Below, piece after piece: positions 1,514 through 36,210 of a stretch of 37,678 nt of DNA; within the stretch, counting starts at the first letter, position 1; each line of letters begins with the position of its first letter. The notes under the pieces were generated by a model. It did no database searches, was not told the origin of the DNA, and was given only the letters and a program-made list of their open reading frames with translations. Location: IMG/VR virus record IMGVR_UViG_3300035670_000638, positions 1 to 37,678 of that record. One strand, written 5' to 3'. The stretch comes from a virus. The position numbers and the translations under genes were made by a program.

Positions 1514-1521
1514 TATTTAGT
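1514..1521 (-). promoter_or_regulatory. Late promoter ACTAAATA before the CxxC membrane gene
   Basis: On the minus strand the sequence reads GACTAAATATC. The TAA of this motif is also the stop codon of the sigma gene. By T4 spacing transcription would start near 1508, leaving about 15 bases of leader before the ATG at 1492. Confidence 0.6.
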
Positions 1522-1888
1522 CTTGCAGTTGTCGATTGAAGCTCGGGTCTAACCCATTAGCCATTTTAATCTCATCGAGAATGTCACGCTGCTTATGTTG
1601 TTTGGTCAAATATTGGATAAAAGAACGTTCAATGCAGGTCGTGTAATACGAAAACGGGGATGATGGTGAGTTGATGTCGAACTTGGACCATGCACCGCTA
1701 CACAAGTTGAGAAGAGCCGCACTCTTCATATCATCAAGATAACTGTAGTTTCTCCAATTGCCTTTCTGTCCGATGCGATCCACCAACAACATGAAGTATT
1801 TGCCGAGTTGTTCTGTGATATGACCAGCTTCACGTGCCACGATCAATTCTTTTCTAAGTTGTTCACCTGTTAGGTACTTCTTCGACAT
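1517..1888 (-). CDS. T4 gp55-like late RNA polymerase sigma factor (short form)
   Basis: The 123-residue product matches the sigma region 2 pattern of T4 gp55 by eye: a DMK...A helix, then WSKFD, then PFSYYTTCIERSFIQYL followed by a basic KQHKQRDI segment. In T4, gp55 replaces sigma70 and recognises TATAAATA at late promoters. This protein is shorter than gp55 (about 185 residues). The C-terminus (ending FNRQLQD) lacks an obvious gp45-type clamp-binding motif. The start is supported by AGGGAG before the ATG. More than 20 TAAATA sites ahead of operons in this genome give independent functional support. Assignment is by motif memory, not alignment. Confidence 0.8.
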   Translation of the reverse strand: MSKKYLTGEQLRKELIVAREAGHITEQLGKYFMLLVDRIGQKGNWRNYSYLDDMKSAALLNLCSGAWSKFDINSPSSPFSYYTTCIERSFIQYLTKQHKQRDILDEIKMANGLDPSFNRQLQD

Positions 1889-3263: not shown

Positions 3264-3271
3264 CTTAAATA
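3264..3271 (+). promoter_or_regulatory. Late promoter CTTAAATA facing a gene-free interval
   Basis: CGCTTAAATACATTC points right into 3277-3443, where no gene exists. Predicted +1 is 3277. This is one of several late-type motifs that drive apparently non-coding DNA. Confidence 0.5.
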
Positions 3272-3276
3272 CATTC

Positions 3277-3443
3277 ATAATTTGGGTTGGCACCATATCT
3301 CTACAGACCCGCACGGGTCGTTGGTCTGTCAATGCCACTGATGCTTAAACCGACGTTTCCCATGCTTATGTACTCAACGTCGGTGGTAGTCAAATCCCGG
3401 TGCCGTAAATGTCAGTCAGGGGACAATCAGTGGAACACCCGAA
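3277..3443 (+). ncRNA. Candidate structured RNA, about 165 nt
   Basis: Downstream of the late motif, pairing by eye gives a closing stem GGCACC/GGTGCC (3289-3294 with 3399-3404). It encloses ACAGACC/GGTCTGT (3303-3309 with 3323-3329) and the 9-bp ACCGACGTT/AACGTCGGT (3349-3357 with 3376-3384). CCACTG (3335-3340) can pair with CAGTGG (3428-3433) to form a pseudoknot. No coding frame of useful length is present. No known RNA family was recognised. No clear 3' terminator is seen before the convergent gene ending at 3444, so transcript extent is uncertain. Confidence 0.45.
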
Positions 3444-4362: not shown

Positions 4363-4448
4363 GTAGTGCGAAATCCCGATTAAAAGAAGGTCAGGAAGAA
4401 GGTAGCAGAAACGTAGGGAAACTGCTGGCTCGGGCTGTCTTATGAGGG

Positions 4449-4456
4449 TATTTATG
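4449..4456 (-). promoter_or_regulatory. Late promoter CATAAATA for the 4362-3444 operon
   Basis: The minus strand reads GTCATAAATACCC. Predicted +1 is 4443, giving a leader of about 80 bases that contains a small AGCAG/CTGCT hairpin. Confidence 0.5.
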
Positions 4457-4554
4457 ACTATTGCGTTCAGGGATGGAGATACTTTGATTGCTCGGGATAT
4501 GGCTGGAAAGCGCGATTTTTTGTGTTTGTCAAGCACCAAATACGCGAAAAACGC

Positions 4555-4571
4555 ATTATTTTGAAAATAAT
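4555..4571. repeat. AT-rich perfect palindrome
   Basis: ATTATTTT and AAAATAAT flank a single G (4563), giving a 17-bp palindrome in an AT-rich stretch. It adjoins the phased CAAGTA repeats, as a duplex-unwinding element would at an origin; this is inference. Confidence 0.6.
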
Positions 4572-4597
4572 TTGATGTGTTGCATAAATGTCACACT

Positions 4598-4668
4598 CAA
4601 GTAGTCAGCAAGTAATCATACAACCATCACAAGTAAACCACCAAGTATTCAGAAGACAAGCTCAAGTA
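4598..4668 (+). repeat. Five helically phased CAAGTA repeats (iteron-like)
   Basis: CAAGTA occurs at 4598, 4609, 4630, 4642 and 4663. Start-to-start spacings are 11, 21, 12 and 21, close to multiples of the 10.5-bp helical turn. All copies have the same orientation. This is how iterons or cooperative operator sites look. Confidence 0.6.
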
Positions 4669-4754
4669 ATACTGTGTCAAGCACAAAGTGATCAGGACAC
4701 CATCAACTCAGGCATGCCTTGGACGCATGGAACGTTCTACTACCACAAGGTGCG

Positions 4755-4769
4755 GAACAAAACGTGAAC
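4755..4769 (+). promoter_or_regulatory. LexA-type box GAAC-AAAACGT-GAAC
   Basis: This is an exact match to the reverse complement of GTTC-N7-GTTC, the SOS box of alphaproteobacterial LexA. The spacer AAAACGT recurs in other copies. Confidence 0.6.
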
Positions 4770-4829
4770 ACTTGATTGGTACAGTATTCGCATCTTGCAA
4801 TGATCGTGCCAGTCCTGATGTGACATCCT

Positions 4830-4850
4830 TGAGAATGATAATCATTCTCA
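4830..4850. promoter_or_regulatory. Fur-box-like 21-bp perfect palindrome
   Basis: The sequence GAGAATGATAATCATTCTC (4831-4849), extended one base each side, is a perfect palindrome about base 4840. It differs from the 19-bp consensus Fur box GATAATGATAATCATTATC at only two symmetric positions. No gene start follows closely on either strand. Confidence 0.55.
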
Positions 4851-4896
4851 TTGGTATGGTTCGTGTTCTTGCAAGAAGTATGCCATCTCAGGTATG

Positions 4897-4922
4897 GAAC
4901 AAAACGTGAACAAACCATGAAC
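4897..4922 (+). promoter_or_regulatory. Triple GAAC array (two overlapping LexA-type boxes)
   Basis: GAAC occurs at 4897, 4908 and 4919, each separated by 7 bases (AAAACGT, then AAACCAT). This gives two overlapping GAAC-N7-GAAC sites with an exact 11-bp period. Confidence 0.6.
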
Positions 4923-4943
4923 CATATGCTGAGCGCAACAGTG

Positions 4944-4958
4944 GAACAAAACATGAAC
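4944..4958 (+). promoter_or_regulatory. LexA-type box GAAC-AAAACAT-GAAC
   Basis: Another exact GAAC-N7-GAAC, preceded by G as in the other copies (GGAAC). Confidence 0.55.
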
Positions 4959-4969
4959 ACGTGGCAACA

Positions 4970-4984
4970 GAACAAAACGTGAAC
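4970..4984 (+). promoter_or_regulatory. LexA-type box GAAC-AAAACGT-GAAC
   Basis: Its 15 bases are identical to the site at 4755-4769. Confidence 0.6.
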
Positions 4985-5298
4985 AGAATGGGGCAGCCAT
5001 CATAGGGGTATGCCTATGCACATACCATGCCAGCACCATCACACTGACCATGAACAACCATACACTGTAATACGTCTACATATAGACAAGAGTTGTCGCA
5101 TAATATTTAATTATGACTCCAACAGCATTTGCTAATACACTAGGAAAACCAAGGCTTTGCGAGGTTATGAGAACGTTTCGCAACTGTCTAGATATAGCAT
5201 ACCAAATATGGTGGACACGTTAAGCGAGTGATGTGCTTAGTCTACCGTGCCAGTGGTCTGCCACAATCCTGATAGGAATGTTAGCACATCGATAGGTT

Positions 5299-5313
5299 GT
5301 TCACGTTTTGTTC
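5299..5313 (-). promoter_or_regulatory. LexA-type box GTTC-ACGTTTT-GTTC, inverted orientation
   Basis: This is the reverse complement of the same 15-mer found at 4755 and 4970. From here rightward the boxes face the opposite way, so two inverted arrays flank about 310 bp. Confidence 0.6.
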
Positions 5314-5337
5314 CATAGCCAAGCTCAATCATGGTTT

Positions 5338-5352
5338 GTTCACGGTTTGTAC
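5338..5352 (-). promoter_or_regulatory. Degenerate LexA-type box
   Basis: GTTC-ACGGTTT-GTAC differs from the exact pattern at one base of the second half-site. Confidence 0.4.
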
Positions 5353-5438
5353 CATGGCTATGCGTGATATGCATGGCAGCCCTGCGTCTATGACATGGCT
5401 GCAATTGCGACGCATTCTTAATGGTCGATTGTGCTTGA

Positions 5439-5473
5439 CTGTGGCATTTGTGCCACAGGGGTACAGACCCCCT
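5439..5473. repeat. Two adjoining inverted repeats
   Basis: CTGTGGCA-TTTG-TGCCACAG (5439-5458) is followed without a gap by AGGGG...CCCCT (5457-5461 with 5469-5473). They could be an operator dyad or part of an RNA. GTACAG (5461) can also pair with CTGTAC about 40 bases downstream. Confidence 0.5.
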
Positions 5474-5658
5474 ATTGACAAACAGCGTCGGGGCTATCCC
5501 ATCTGTACAAAAACAGGATTTCAAAATCCGACCACCAAGACCATCCTATGACCATCCCCGCGCATCTATGTGTGCAACGTCCTCTGCATGATCTCGCATC
5601 GTTCTCTTAAATTCTCTGCAAGACCCCACAAATCTGCATAGCTCCTATGCACAAATTT

Positions 5659-5673
5659 GTTCTTGTTTTGTTC
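5659..5673 (-). promoter_or_regulatory. LexA-type box just upstream of the RNA promoter
   Basis: GTTC-TTGTTTT-GTTC ends 9 bases before the late octamer at 5683-5690. The position suggests that the candidate RNA could be modulated by the factor binding these boxes. Confidence 0.5.
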
Positions 5674-5682
5674 CAATTCGTG

Positions 5683-5690
5683 CTTAAATA
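5683..5690 (+). promoter_or_regulatory. Late promoter CTTAAATA for the 5.7-6.1 kb RNA
   Basis: TGCTTAAATAGATG faces right into a region without genes. Predicted +1 is 5696. Confidence 0.55.
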
Positions 5691-5695
5691 GATGT

Positions 5696-6107
5696 TCATA
5701 GTTGGAACCGAAATGGTCGCAAGACCCTCGTCATCTGGGCAAGGTGATACTGTAGAAGACACCAACATGTCCTCTAACCCGAACTGGTTATAATCCAGTG
5801 ACACATCATGAGCTATTTGCGTGGCAAGTGATGTTAACCGTAGGTAATCCCAACCAAGACCCTGATTACAGGTGTGATGGTGATGGGATTGGAAGACTTG
5901 GGATGGATGTATAGACTTACCGGCATCTGCCAAATACCCAAGACGCAAGATGGTTCAACTCACCGAAAGAACAAGTTGATCATAGTTTTCTTATCTTCGG
6001 ATAGGGAAACTATGGTTAATCTACCGAATGAACGAAGTTCATGAGGTTCAGTTTAAGATACTAAGAAAATTCTCAAAAAGAAAACCCCGTAGAAATACGG
6101 GGTCTTA
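5696..6107 (+). ncRNA. Candidate large ornate RNA, about 400 nt
   Basis: Pairing by eye gives a closing stem GAACC/GGTTC (5705-5709 with 6045-6049) around a chain of hairpins: GGTC-GCAA-GACC (5715-5726); ACTGG/CCAGT (5783-5799); ACATCA/TGATGT (5803-5834) with an inner stem; a nested three-part stem 5846-5890 capped CCTG-ATTA-CAGG; CTTGGG/CCCAAG (5897-5942); TCAACT/AGTTGA (5955-5979); a 15-bp stem with a UUCG loop (5981-6014); ATGAAC-GAA-GTTCAT (6028-6042). The GNRA and C(UUCG)G loops and three G-U pairs in the 15-bp stem work only on the plus strand. A hairpin with a GAAA loop at 6084-6103 could end it. No family was recognised. Confidence 0.55.
6084..6103. terminator. Terminator of the minus operon, possibly of the plus RNA too
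   Basis: ACCCCGTA-GAAA-TACGGGGT is an 8-bp stem. On the minus strand TTTTCTTTTT follows, a good intrinsic terminator for the gene ending at 6115. On the plus strand it has a GNRA loop and the weaker tail TCTTAAT. Confidence 0.85.
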
Positions 6108-6114
6108 ATCGAAA

Positions 6115-6327
6115 TCAGTCCTTGGTTTCTAGTTTCATTTGTTCGATGACTTCGCAGTACACCTTGAACTGCTTCTCCATTGATGGGTAGTTCTTGCGGT
6201 TCTGTTCGTAGTTCTGACGGGCATCTTCGTACAATTCATCGAAGGTCTTACCTTGCTTGAGTTTGTGCGTCAGTATGCTCTTCACCATGTCTGCGAACGT
6301 CATCGTTGCTGATATGTCGATGGACAT
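6115..6327 (-). CDS. Unknown helical protein (70 aa)
   Basis: The product (MSIDISATMTFADMVKSIL at the N-terminus) is predominantly helical with many Lys/Glu/Tyr (YEDARQNYEQNRKNYPS). The start at 6327 is set by TAATG, where the stop of the upstream gene overlaps the ATG. It is the last gene of the five-gene minus operon that starts with the methylase and ends at the terminator 6084-6103. No family recognised. Confidence 0.7.
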   Translation of the reverse strand: MSIDISATMTFADMVKSILTHKLKQGKTFDELYEDARQNYEQNRKNYPSMEKQFKVYCEVIEQMKLETKD

Positions 6328-6512
6328 TAGAACCACTCGACCAGTATTTCGAAGATACGGATGGACTTGCCCGCTTCGACCACTTTGATGTCGTTGTAGC
6401 GGTTGTTGTAGTTCTGGATCAGGTCATCAAATTCCGACTTCGGAACCAGCACGACCTTGGCACGGATGTCCGACCCATCACGCAGGGTCATAAGCTTTTC
6501 AATCAAAGTCAT
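6327..6512 (-). CDS. Unknown small protein (61 aa)
   Basis: The product has an N-terminal helix (IEKLMTLRDG), a beta-rich centre (RAKVVLVPKSEFDDL) and a hydrophobic end. Its ATG overlaps the TGA of the preceding 40-residue gene (ATGA) and its TAA overlaps the next ATG, so it is translationally coupled on both sides. Function unknown. Confidence 0.7.
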   Translation of the reverse strand: MTLIEKLMTLRDGSDIRAKVVLVPKSEFDDLIQNYNNRYNDIKVVEAGKSIRIFEILVEWF

Positions 6513-6631
6513 TGTCTTTCCTTTCTTGTGAAATCCACATAGATCACGTTATCCCGATACCTGACCTGTACCGGTGCCGCACCCATTATTAAGTCGAACC
6601 ATAACCGATACCATCCCATCCAGAGCATCAT
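6509..6631 (-). CDS. Tiny amphipathic protein (40 aa)
   Basis: The frame starts ATGATG at 6631 and reads MMLWMGWYRLWFDLIMGAAP, then a polar basic end (DFTRKERQ). The first 20 residues are rich in Trp, Leu and Met, consistent with a membrane-associated helix. It is joined to both neighbours by 4-base ATGA overlaps (6628-6631 and 6509-6512), which is strong evidence for translation despite its length. Role unknown. Confidence 0.65.
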   Translation of the reverse strand: MMLWMGWYRLWFDLIMGAAPVQVRYRDNVIYVDFTRKERQ

Positions 6632-6897
6632 AGGTCTACCTCGAACAAATTCTTGCCTGTCCATCCCACGTCCCGTTGAGCGTGAGCCGTCTTACGTACT
6701 TGGTCGGGATGAACACCCGCAGCCACACAAACGTCCTTGAAATCGCTTCCAAACGACAACAGCCACGTCCGTGCTTGGTTGATGTCCACCTCGGTGCAGT
6801 GCTGACCACTCGGCTTCGAACATGCATCAACGAAAGCCTGCCGTAGAACAGCGAGCCAGAATTTGCGCATGCGATTGATTTCGTAATGGGTGGTCAT
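6628..6897 (-). CDS. Small phage protein with WLxSxxSDFxxVCxxAGxxPxxVR-like motif (89 aa)
   Basis: The central part reads WLLSFGSDFKDVCVAAGVHP and continues DQVRK. This pattern is familiar from uncharacterised small proteins of alphaproteobacterial phages and gene transfer agents, but no function is known to me. The N-terminus is helical and basic (NRMRKFWLAVLRQAF). The gene lies 3 bases after the methylase stop on the minus strand and is ATGA-coupled to the next one. Regulation would come from the late promoter at 7513-7520. Confidence 0.7.
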   Translation of the reverse strand: MTTHYEINRMRKFWLAVLRQAFVDACSKPSGQHCTEVDINQARTWLLSFGSDFKDVCVAAGVHPDQVRKTAHAQRDVGWTGKNLFEVDL

Positions 6898-6900
6898 AAT

Positions 6901-7485
6901 TTACAACATGGTGTGAGCGGGAATGTTGGGGATATTGAAGAACAGGATTTCCGCATAGACCTCGTGACCGGGGAATATCTTGCGCGGCATCGAACAGATC
7001 GACGTGATGTTCCAATTCTCTTTGATGTAGACGTACCGCGAGCTTGTCGTCCAATTGATGTTCAGACGGAAATGTATTGGACTGATCATCACACACGGTA
7101 TCTTGTTACCCCATAGATCATGCACCTTGCGCAAGAACACCTCTGGGTAATACTTAGGTCTTGCTCCGTTAAACGGAGGGTTCATCACCACCAGATCAGG
7201 AACTACACCAGCAAGGGCTAAGTCTTCAAATTTCCCAAGATGAAATTCATCCGTCCATTGTCGGTTCGCGTCATCGTTGATGTCGCATCCGATGGTTCGG
7301 ATAGATGGATCATGCGCTTTGTACGGAGCGAACAAGGCACCGGCACCAACAGAAGGGTCAAGCACACAACGGAAATCGAAGCCAGTGAGTTGAGCAATGT
7401 GGTCGGCAACATGTGGGGGTGTGTACACAGCATTGATCTTCTCCGTCCGTTCCTTGATCCGTTTGGGCTGCACAGCAATCGTCAT
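6901..7485 (-). CDS. DNA N6-adenine methyltransferase
   Basis: The 194-residue product has the amino-methyltransferase core: DPSVGAGAL (motif I, S-adenosylmethionine binding, residues about 43-51), a GCDIN motif II acidic segment near residue 70, and VVMNPPFNG (motif IV catalytic NPPF, residues about 99-107). The region YTPPHVADHI just before motif I is motif X-like. The enzyme should methylate adenine in DNA. No target-recognition domain is evident and no partner restriction enzyme is nearby, so it is a solitary phage methylase, plausibly protecting phage DNA from host restriction. Late promoter at 7513-7520. Confidence 0.88.
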   Translation of the reverse strand: MTIAVQPKRIKERTEKINAVYTPPHVADHIAQLTGFDFRCVLDPSVGAGALFAPYKAHDPSIRTIGCDINDDANRQWTDEFHLGKFEDLALAGVVPDLVVMNPPFNGARPKYYPEVFLRKVHDLWGNKIPCVMISPIHFRLNINWTTSSRYVYIKENWNITSICSMPRKIFPGHEVYAEILFFNIPNIPAHTML

Positions 7486-7512: not shown

Positions 7513-7520
7513 TATTTATC
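7513..7520 (-). promoter_or_regulatory. Late promoter GATAAATA for the methylase operon
   Basis: The minus strand reads GCGGATAAATACATG. It is back-to-back with the rightward late promoter at 7528-7535, with 7 bases between octamers. Confidence 0.65.
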
Positions 7521-7527
7521 CGCTCAT

Positions 7528-7535
7528 GATAAATA
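7528..7535 (+). promoter_or_regulatory. Late promoter GATAAATA for the packaging operon
   Basis: ATGATAAATAATG lies about 40 bases before the small terminase ATG. Predicted +1 is 7541. No inverted repeat follows, unlike most other sites. Confidence 0.65.
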
Positions 7536-31208: not shown

Positions 31209-31532
31209 ATGACAATGACTAATAAGAATTTCAGTGGCACCGCAGGAACCACGATGACTGCGGTTTATACATGCCCTGCATCAACTACTGCGGTGATTAA
31301 CTTGCTACAGGCAACCAATATCATTTCTGGACAGGTAACCGTTAATGTCGCTATCTTTGACACATCGGCTACCACCGAAACCAAATTTGTGGCAAATTCA
31401 CCAATGAACGTTGGGTCATCAATATCGTTGCTTGGTGGTGGGCTTGTTCTCGAAGCTGGGGACGAATTGCGCATCCAATCGTCCGCAAATTCATCGGTTG
31501 GATTTGTCGGTAGTGTCACGGAGATTGTCTAA
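31209..31532 (+). CDS. Small beta-rich virion protein (107 aa)
   Basis: The product (NFSGTAGTTMTAVYTCPAST) alternates hydrophobic and polar residues and ends SSANSSVGFVGSVTEIV. Similar small beta-sandwich proteins occur next to phage fibres and may trimerise as fibre knobs. GGAGG at 31195 supports the ATG at 31209. Its stop overlaps the ATG of the RCC1 gene. Function inferred from context only. Confidence 0.65.
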   Translation: MTMTNKNFSGTAGTTMTAVYTCPASTTAVINLLQATNIISGQVTVNVAIFDTSATTETKFVANSPMNVGSSISLLGGGLVLEAGDELRIQSSANSSVGFVGSVTEIV

Positions 31533-33805
31533 TGGCTTTTTCACGTCTCATGGGGGTAGGAAACACACCCCTGCAATCTTCTTACAATTTGGCTCTTTCC
31601 GGTTCTGGTGTCACGGTTACTGGTGTCAGAAACATCGACGCTATTCAAGGGCCATTAATTTATCAAGCTGGCTCCGTATTGGGTGTTGGTGGTAATACAA
31701 ACGGTGATACTGGGTGCCGTGTTAATACCACCCCGTTGAAAGAGTTTGCGTCATCAAGCCATTTTGCGTTCGACATTGTAGACATCAAAGGCACTGGGTC
31801 TACTTGGTATTATATGGATGCGAATGGTAGCGTTTGGTCGTCGGGTGGAAGCGGCAACGGGCAAATTGGTACAGGAGTATTTGCAACTCAATATGTTCCA
31901 CAGTATTCGTTTCCCAAAGCCCAAACTGTTGCGGGTGGGCTTCAACATGCTGTTCTCATCGACGGTGATGGGTACCTTTGGGCATGTGGATACAACTACC
32001 GTGGTCGTACCGGTCTTGGTTTTGATGCGTCAACCAGCACTGGTACGTGGACTAAATGCGACACCACCAACAGCGGGACGACAAAATTTGTCAAAGTATC
32101 CTGTGGTTCTTTTATGACCATTGCCATTGATCAGGCTGGCATAGCATGGGGGTTTGGTGAAGGCACTAATGGCACTTTCGGTCAAAATGATCAGACACAT
32201 CGTCTTCTTCCAACACAACTTGGCACCAAGTCTTGGAATCAAATCAGTTGTGGTTATGCTCATACCCTCGGTGTGGATACTGATAACAAACTATGGGCAT
32301 GGGGATACAACAATGCGTATCAATGTGGTACAGGAAACACCACAAACGTATTGGCATGGACAGAAATCAGCCTTGGTGTAACGGTTCAGGCTGTTGATGC
32401 GGGAAGTTCCTCATCCACGAGTCATAGTGTCGCATTGGATGTGAACGGTGAAATTTGGGTGGCTGGTGGTAATCAGTACGGAAAAACCGGACAGAATACC
32501 CAAACTGGTCAAACCACCAACTGGACGAAACTGAACACGGGGTCAACTCGTTTCACCAAAATCCGTGCAGGGGCAAATGAAACTTATGCTCTCGACACTA
32601 CTGGTAAGTTGTGGGTCTGTGGGTACAATGGTGCATACCAGTTGGATATGCAAAACACCACAAACGTGGTCGTTTTGACGCAAAGTAATAACCCGTATAC
32701 GTTCACTGATTTGTCCAGCCCGAACGGAAGTGGAATTATTGCAGGTTTGCGTTCTGGACGCGGCTGGTGGTCTGTTGGGTCTTTCAACGGGGCAGATGGA
32801 CGCGGCTCCGCTGGTGCGCATTACCGTTATTTCAGTCCAATCACTCACATCAAAGCAGATCAGGGGCATAACAGTCCACAGTCAACAGCTTTTATGCTAC
32901 TTGACGATGAGGGTGGTGTGCTTGGTTGGGGTAACAATTCCCAATTCCAATTAGGGCATCCTGATACTTCCGGTGGGTATCTTCCAAAAACCACCACTTA
33001 CACCAAATACAAATGGTCAACGACCGGTCAGCAGCATGCATTCCTCATCGATATGAACGATAAATTGTTTACCGCTGGCAGCAATACATCTGGAAAAACC
33101 GGTCTTAATTTGACATCTGGTACAACATCAACATGGACACAAATCGGAACTGATAGCTGGAAAATGGTTTCGGCATCGAGCCAGCAGCATTCTGCTGCTA
33201 TTCGTGCCGATGACACCCTATGGGCATGGGGACTGAATTCATCGTATCAGTTGGGTGATGGTACAAACGTCCAGAAAAACGTCCCAACTCAAATCGGGAC
33301 GGATACTTGGCTGCAAGTTGTTGCTGGATCAAACAATACTATCGGTATTCGTCTTACAGATGGTGCGTTGCTTGCCTGGGGTGCGAATAGCAGCTACGTG
33401 ACTGGTAAAAATACCGCAAGTGGTAGTACAACTTCTCCATCGGTGATTGCCTCCGGTACTGCGTTTGTGAAATGCAGTATCAGTATGACCCATGGTCTTG
33501 CTATTGACACCAGTGGAAACCTTTGGGCATGGGGGCAAAATACCAACGGTGAATGTGGTACTGGTACCACAGCAATTGTTGGTGTTCCAACACTTATCGA
33601 TAGTGTATTGAACTGGAAAAACGTATCCGCAGGTTCGAATTACTCAGTGGCAATCACCGAGGATGATGAAGTGTACGTCGCGGGTAATGGTGCCAACTAC
33701 TCGTTTGGTGTTCCGATTGCTGTAATAAATTTCACCAAGTTGACTGGAAACAAAATGTCTATCCTTAGCACTCATGGTACGACCATGTTGCTAAAATCTA
33801 TATGA
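31532..33805 (+). CDS. RCC1-repeat beta-propeller tail protein (757 aa)
   Basis: Fourteen repeats of the form (L/V)-W-A-W-G-x-N-x-x-x-x-x-G-x-G can be counted, for example LWACGYNYRGRTGLG, LWAWGYNNAYQCGTG, LWAWGLNSSYQLGDG and LWAWGQNTNGECGTG, starting with a weak one at VLGVGGNTNGDTGC and ending VYVAGNGANYSFG. Spacing is roughly 45-55 residues. Fourteen repeats would make two seven-bladed propellers. RCC1 repeats are protein-interaction folds. Being last in the fibre operon, it is likely the distal receptor-binding head or spike. Confidence 0.85.
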   Translation: MAFSRLMGVGNTPLQSSYNLALSGSGVTVTGVRNIDAIQGPLIYQAGSVLGVGGNTNGDTGCRVNTTPLKEFASSSHFAFDIVDIKGTGSTWYYMDANGSVWSSGGSGNGQIGTGVFATQYVPQYSFPKAQTVAGGLQHAVLIDGDGYLWACGYNYRGRTGLGFDASTSTGTWTKCDTTNSGTTKFVKVSCGSFMTIAIDQAGIAWGFGEGTNGTFGQNDQTHRLLPTQLGTKSWNQISCGYAHTLGVDTDNKLWAWGYNNAYQCGTGNTTNVLAWTEISLGVTVQAVDAGSSSSTSHSVALDVNGEIWVAGGNQYGKTGQNTQTGQTTNWTKLNTGSTRFTKIRAGANETYALDTTGKLWVCGYNGAYQLDMQNTTNVVVLTQSNNPYTFTDLSSPNGSGIIAGLRSGRGWWSVGSFNGADGRGSAGAHYRYFSPITHIKADQGHNSPQSTAFMLLDDEGGVLGWGNNSQFQLGHPDTSGGYLPKTTTYTKYKWSTTGQQHAFLIDMNDKLFTAGSNTSGKTGLNLTSGTTSTWTQIGTDSWKMVSASSQQHSAAIRADDTLWAWGLNSSYQLGDGTNVQKNVPTQIGTDTWLQVVAGSNNTIGIRLTDGALLAWGANSSYVTGKNTASGSTTSPSVIASGTAFVKCSISMTHGLAIDTSGNLWAWGQNTNGECGTGTTAIVGVPTLIDSVLNWKNVSAGSNYSVAITEDDEVYVAGNGANYSFGVPIAVINFTKLTGNKMSILSTHGTTMLLKSI

Positions 33806-36168: not shown

Positions 36169-36210
36169 AAAGCATTTGGGTGTGGTAGGAATGTCACACC
36201 CAAATGCTTT
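36169..36210 (-). terminator. Long-stem terminator of the leftward early operon
   Basis: A perfect 16-bp stem (36169-36184 with 36195-36210) with a 10-base loop begins in the stop codon of the gene ending at 36209. A short T run (CTTTTCG) follows on the minus strand. Confidence 0.8.

Follow-up and report, generated by a model that had tools for sequence, protein, structure and literature searches.

The window analysed here spans an entire IMG/VR virus record (37,678 bases), which carries siphovirus-type genes for terminase, portal, scaffold, major head protein, minor tail protein and tape measure. The phage is an unclassified lineage of its own; its nearest terminase relatives among viral contigs share 48% identity, and DNA searches against the phage collection returned zero matches for it. 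Within the tail region, a 757-aa protein (31532-33805) contains RCC1-type beta-propeller repeats. Gene density is high elsewhere in the genome; positions 4380-6114, about 1.7 kb, are without genes. The ORFs of this region have codon-usage scores of -0.15 to -0.34, below every accepted phage gene (minimum -0.09 and median 0.23 in this reference set), and a Pfam scan of five of them gave no match. The original prediction that 5696-6107 holds no credible gene is thereby borne out. The same applies to a 113-aa minus-strand ORF at 5607-5948, the frame named beforehand as the one that could speak against an RNA, whose codon usage also falls below that of all accepted genes.

The gene-free region contains an array of repeated boxes. 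Seven exact GTTC-N7-GTTC cores lie within 920 bp (4755-5673), and the whole record holds nine, where 1.9 would be expected. The boxes are 18-nt units, TGTTC[A/T][C/T]GTTTTGTTCCA, present in both orientations (Table 1); the last one ends at 5675, and 5696-6107 is free of them. GTTC-N7-GTTC is the LexA motif of alphaproteobacteria (PMC3323433; PMC12700426). The extended 18-mer TGTTCACGTTTTGTTCCA occurs in 97 stretches of viral contigs, which represent 48 distinct unrelated contexts and often contain arrays. It also occurs in 11 stretches among 257 billion bases of prokaryotic genomes (85,000 genomes), mostly within genes, a number that we estimate to be near chance level, and the exact 18-mer, that is, the LexA consensus with these flanks, was not found in alphaproteobacterial genomes. 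Near copies of the box in viral loci are located outside predicted genes of at least 70 aa in 86 of 157 cases; some groups have the box close to terminase genes, others close to polynucleotide kinase genes. In four viral loci (L020, L021, L038 and L096) a box precedes the large terminase gene by 48-50 nt, and in three (L016, L027 and L065) it stands upstream of the small terminase gene; this placement in several groups suggests a shared operator or a packaging-related site. Another locus (L078, 10755-13270) accumulates 14 near box copies and 20 GTTC-N7-GTTC cores, with one stretch upstream of a polynucleotide-kinase-like gene. The idea that boxes generally drive structured RNA found no support: across 42 contexts the mean z of the plus strand downstream is -1.5, with no general excess of structure, so that the boxes are not regularly accompanied by such an RNA.

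The octamer CTTAAATA at 5683-5690 is one of five such octamers in the record, where 0.33 would be expected. Transcription from it would presumably start at ~5696-5698, the position given by T4 late-promoter spacing. The shorter motif TAAATA occurs at 35 sites versus 8.2 expected, about four times as many, and reached a maximum of 13 across 30 shuffles. Many of these sites are located directly upstream of genes on the coding strand, for example those for the portal (10382) and the major head protein (12538); others lie at 7513 on the minus strand, before leftward genes, and at 7530, before the gene for the terminase small subunit. The phage also encodes a gp55-like sigma factor, 44% identical to annotated late sigma factors of Pseudomonas jumbo phages. 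Given this gene, the enrichment in TAAATA and the position of the predicted start 2-4 nt before the closing helix described below, the late promoter originally proposed at 5683 is credible. A second CTTAAATA site (3264-3443, plus strand) precedes ~170 plus-strand bases of apparent spacer, the fold of which is no better than that of shuffled controls (z -1.0).

Table 1. Features predicted in and around the gene-free region, and the gp55-like sigma factor gene
Feature	Position	Strand	Details
gp55-like late transcription sigma factor gene	1517-1888	-	phrog_12791, E 1.7e-25
Gene-free region, ~1.7 kb	4380-6114		Flanked by two leftward gene blocks; codon usage, Pfam
Four 18-nt boxes	4753, 4895, 4942, 4968 (within 4753-4985)	-	Plus overlapping fifth core, 4908-4922
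Box (5298-5315) and imperfect box (5337-5354)	5298-5354	+	
GTTC-N7-GTTC (LexA-type) box TGTTCTTGTTTTGTTCCA	5658-5675	+	Abuts late promoter, ends 7 bases before it
Putative T4-like late promoter CTTAAATA	5683-5690	+	Start site expected at ~5696-5698
Candidate late noncoding RNA	5696-6107	+	Fold z -5.5; start predicted from late promoter; 3' end uncertain, ~6047 to 6107
Multi-branched domain	5700-5960	+	Closing helix 5700-5709/5952-5960; pairing probability 0.81-0.83; z -2.6 to -3.0
GGUC-GCAA-GACC hairpin, GNRA loop	5715-5726	+	Pairing probability 0.99
5-bp hairpin, 7-nt loop UUAUAAU	5783-5799	+	Pairing probability 0.96
Two-part hairpin ACAUCAU..GCUAU/GUGGC..GUGAUGU	5803-5834	+	Pairing probability 0.95-0.97
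Long imperfect hairpin UAAUCCCA/UGGGAUUG	5845-5891	+	Pairing probability 0.88-1.0
21-bp hairpin, cap C(UUCG)G	5975-6020	+	Five G-U pairs, no A-C
Hairpin with AUGAAC-GAA-GUUCAU core at 6028-6042	6023-6047	+	Pairing probability 0.91-0.99
Intrinsic terminator of leftward operon	6081-6106	-	AAGACCCCGTATTTCTACGGGGTTTT-CTTTTT, minus strand only

Folded as plus-strand RNA, 5696-6107 reaches a minimum free energy of -133.1 kcal/mol (z -5.5), a value that no dinucleotide shuffle equalled; a lack of stability above such controls, named beforehand as a result that would speak against the prediction, is thus not observed. Among the 412-nt segments of the record, taken on both strands, this one ranks first of 252, against a genome background whose mean z is itself not zero (~-1.5 on the plus and ~-1.2 on the minus strand). 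The bulk of the excess stability is in the 3' part (5973-6048), with z -8.2 on the plus versus -3.7 on the minus strand; the 5' multi-branched domain is only modestly above chance, 5698-5972 having a z of -2.6 that is identical on both strands. In sliding windows, high plus-strand stability runs beyond 6107 into the antisense of the gene at 6115-6336, and stability alone therefore does not mark the 3' end of the RNA. The antisense of this gene is unusually stable as RNA (6151-6300, plus strand, z -6.4).

In the fold, which is predicted from the single known sequence, the 5' multi-branched domain is closed by a helix that begins 2-4 nt after the predicted start site; a closing helix of equal length at the ends appeared in 10 of 400 shuffles. 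Eight hairpins had been proposed within a closing stem. The stem is recovered, but its helix (5700-5709/5952-5960) encloses six hairpins, the UUCG and GAA hairpins lying outside it. All three hairpins that had been named individually (GCAA at 5715-5726, GAA at 6028-6042 and the UUCG stem) are present in the fold, although the UUCG stem, described as 15 bp with three G-U pairs, extends to 21 bp with five. This makes it the longest hairpin in the 37,678-base record, compared with a maximum of 16 bp across 20 shuffled genomes. Because its five imperfect pairs are all G-U and none is A-C, the UUCG stem fits a plus-strand RNA rather than an inverted repeat of the DNA. The original prediction had fixed the strand with all three named hairpins; this holds for the UUCG stem and fails for the GCAA and GAA hairpins, which fold nearly as well on the opposite strand. 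The second longest hairpin of the record, with 19 bp and a 4-nt loop, is located at 36169-36210, outside clear genes.

The hairpin at 6081-6106 had been interpreted as the terminator of the plus-strand RNA, with a GAAA loop at 6084. The T-run that goes with it lies on the minus strand, and the hairpin adjoins the stop of the leftward gene 6115-6336, so that it serves this gene, which ends at 6115. On the plus strand the hairpin is followed by UCUUAAUC, merely UCUUAA in the RNA, and for a plus-strand transcript it would act at best as a weak, shared terminator. The distance from the late promoter to this hairpin is about 350-410 nt.

Searches of Rfam with 5696-6107 returned nothing credible, whether the gathering score or a relaxed limit of E 5 was applied; the original prediction had recognised no intron core, RNase P or tmRNA. 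No tRNA, tmRNA, RNase P RNA, group I or II intron or known riboswitch was matched with Rfam or ARAGORN, and the 37.7 kb record, which may be a fragment, contains no tRNA. No RNA homologue was detected by megablast, blastn or nhmmer in viral contigs, phages, plasmids, E. coli or the box-bearing viral loci, nor in a scan of 80 terminase-related viral loci. A covariance model of the 3' domain likewise found no homologue, a silence of little weight as evidence, since a single sequence went into the model. The 15-mer GGTCGCAAGACCCTC has many viral matches, but the two best proved unrelated, one lying in a coding frame and the other being a 25-nt local match. A viral locus considered as a relative of the gene at 6115-6336 (L002) has a long coding stretch at that place and no RNA.

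We favour the reading of 5696-6107 as a late plus-strand noncoding RNA, the product of a stand-alone gene of the phage late class, and we consider that it has about an even chance of being correct. This reading draws on the late sigma factor gene, the promoter motif, the directional UUCG helix and the absence of coding signal, and also on the plus-strand z of -5.5, the first rank among 252, the closing helix near the start and the box arrays. It is not a leader, since there is no plus-strand gene before that of the terminase small subunit, which has a TAAATA of its own at 7530. Several observations count against a late noncoding RNA, namely the lack of a homologue in the collections searched, the z of -2.6 of the 5' domain, equal on both strands, a plus strand without a good terminator and a stability that extends past 6107.

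From the arrangement of these elements we infer how transcription, the RNA ends, repression and role might be connected. The gp55-like sigma factor would direct RNA polymerase to CTTAAATA at 5683, and transcription starting near 5696-5698 would yield an untranslated RNA of about 350-410 nt. Its 5' end may fold at once into the closed multi-branched domain, and its 3' end would consist of three hairpins: the 21-bp UUCG stem, the AUGAAC hairpin and the one that also belongs to the terminator of the leftward operon. As the box at 5658-5675 ends 7 bases before the promoter, a protein bound there should block initiation; this protein, LexA or a LexA-like repressor, probably silences the promoter until late infection. 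The RNA would most likely act in trans, as a stable, structured, protein-binding molecule. A bolder proposal sees here a novel class of late noncoding phage RNA with a promoter gated by the LexA-type box array, whereby a structured effector RNA would be made only with the late programme running and the SOS-type repressor off; we hold this to be quite unlikely.

The main rival to a late noncoding RNA is that 4380-6114 acts as DNA, as a replication origin or control region with iteron-like boxes. The late promoter would then provide a primer or activating transcript, and the hairpins would be incidental or would control that transcript. We consider this less likely than the RNA reading. It would explain seven exact cores within 920 bp in both orientations, where the whole record should contain 1.9, as well as 1.7 kb devoid of genes in an otherwise dense genome and the location of the extended box in unrelated viral contigs, in a small majority of cases outside predicted genes. 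However, the boxes stop at 5675, leaving 5696-6107 with none and with a directional RNA hairpin of its own, and neither a clear GC-skew switch at the box array nor a replication protein beside it was recognised.

The promoter at 5683 and the leftward operon (6115-7485) are convergent, so that the late transcript might instead oppose this operon and silence it, either through antisense pairing or through collision of polymerases. The UUCG hairpin would in that case be an RNase III site or a stabilising end, the remaining fold having no specific role. A 21-bp stem is about the length cut by RNase III, and the weak plus-strand terminator makes read-through into the antisense of 6115-6512 plausible. 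Yet the leftward genes have TAAATA sites of their own, for example at 7513 on the minus strand, and may thus be late too, and a crude search for duplex targets among 48 gene starts revealed nothing convincing; such a shut-off seems unlikely to us.

We think it very unlikely that the locus is mostly the work of chance, a spacer, either untranscribed or in decay, whose folding score is inflated by one strong hairpin and an adjoining terminator. The sequence is a singleton, its excess stability resides mostly in 5973-6048, and coding segments elsewhere in the record reach similar local z values, but chance would not readily account for a late promoter motif with a closing helix beside the predicted start, for five of five imperfect pairs being G-U or for a 21-bp stem beyond all shuffles. 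Finally, that the RNA belongs with large ornate phage RNAs such as GOLLD and ROOL, or is an analogue of them, and assembles as a multimer, is highly improbable: it is phage-encoded, probably late and more structured than shuffled controls, but with ~400 nt, no Rfam match even at the limit of E 5, a record without tRNAs and a modest 5' fold, the style of GOLLD or ROOL that the original prediction saw in it is not sustained.

A late noncoding RNA at this locus, if transcribed, would be an unclassified structured RNA in a phage that combines T4-like late transcription with unrelated morphogenesis genes. What may prove more general is the 18-nt LexA-type box, common to dozens of unrelated environmental viral contigs, whose distribution makes SOS-type control of these phages directly testable.

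Among known systems, GOLLD is a noncoding RNA found in phages and prophages, and its level is reported to rise during lysis; ROOL, also a phage noncoding RNA, has an elaborate predicted fold, and no protein partner of it is known (PMC12286853). The candidate shares with GOLLD its nature as a phage noncoding RNA, but many GOLLD members exceed 800 nt, twice its size, and are often found near tRNA islands, and the GOLLD model of Rfam does not match it. With ROOL it shares a phage origin and an elaborate predicted fold, but it has no Rfam match, no tRNA island and no covariation support for that fold. Membership in either family is not supported, and the resemblance is one of setting only. T4-type late transcription relies on a gp55 sigma factor and TATAAATA promoters; a TATAAATA-like -10 element at 5683 and a gp55-type sigma gene at 1517-1888 are both found here. 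The phage itself is no relative of T4, and its structural genes for head and tail, which are of siphovirus type, occur together with a T4 gp55-like late sigma gene and TAAATA promoter-like sites across the genome. The boxes have the same half-sites and spacing as the alphaproteobacterial LexA box (PMC3323433), the GTTC-N7-GTTC direct repeat being present in seven exact cores at 4755-5673, and the phage spacer TTGTTTT is one base off a Caulobacter box, GTTCttgttatGTTC (PMC12700426). The phage boxes differ in being conserved across 18 nt, including spacer and flanks, and in forming an array of seven, whereas ~97% of Caulobacter SOS promoters have one box.
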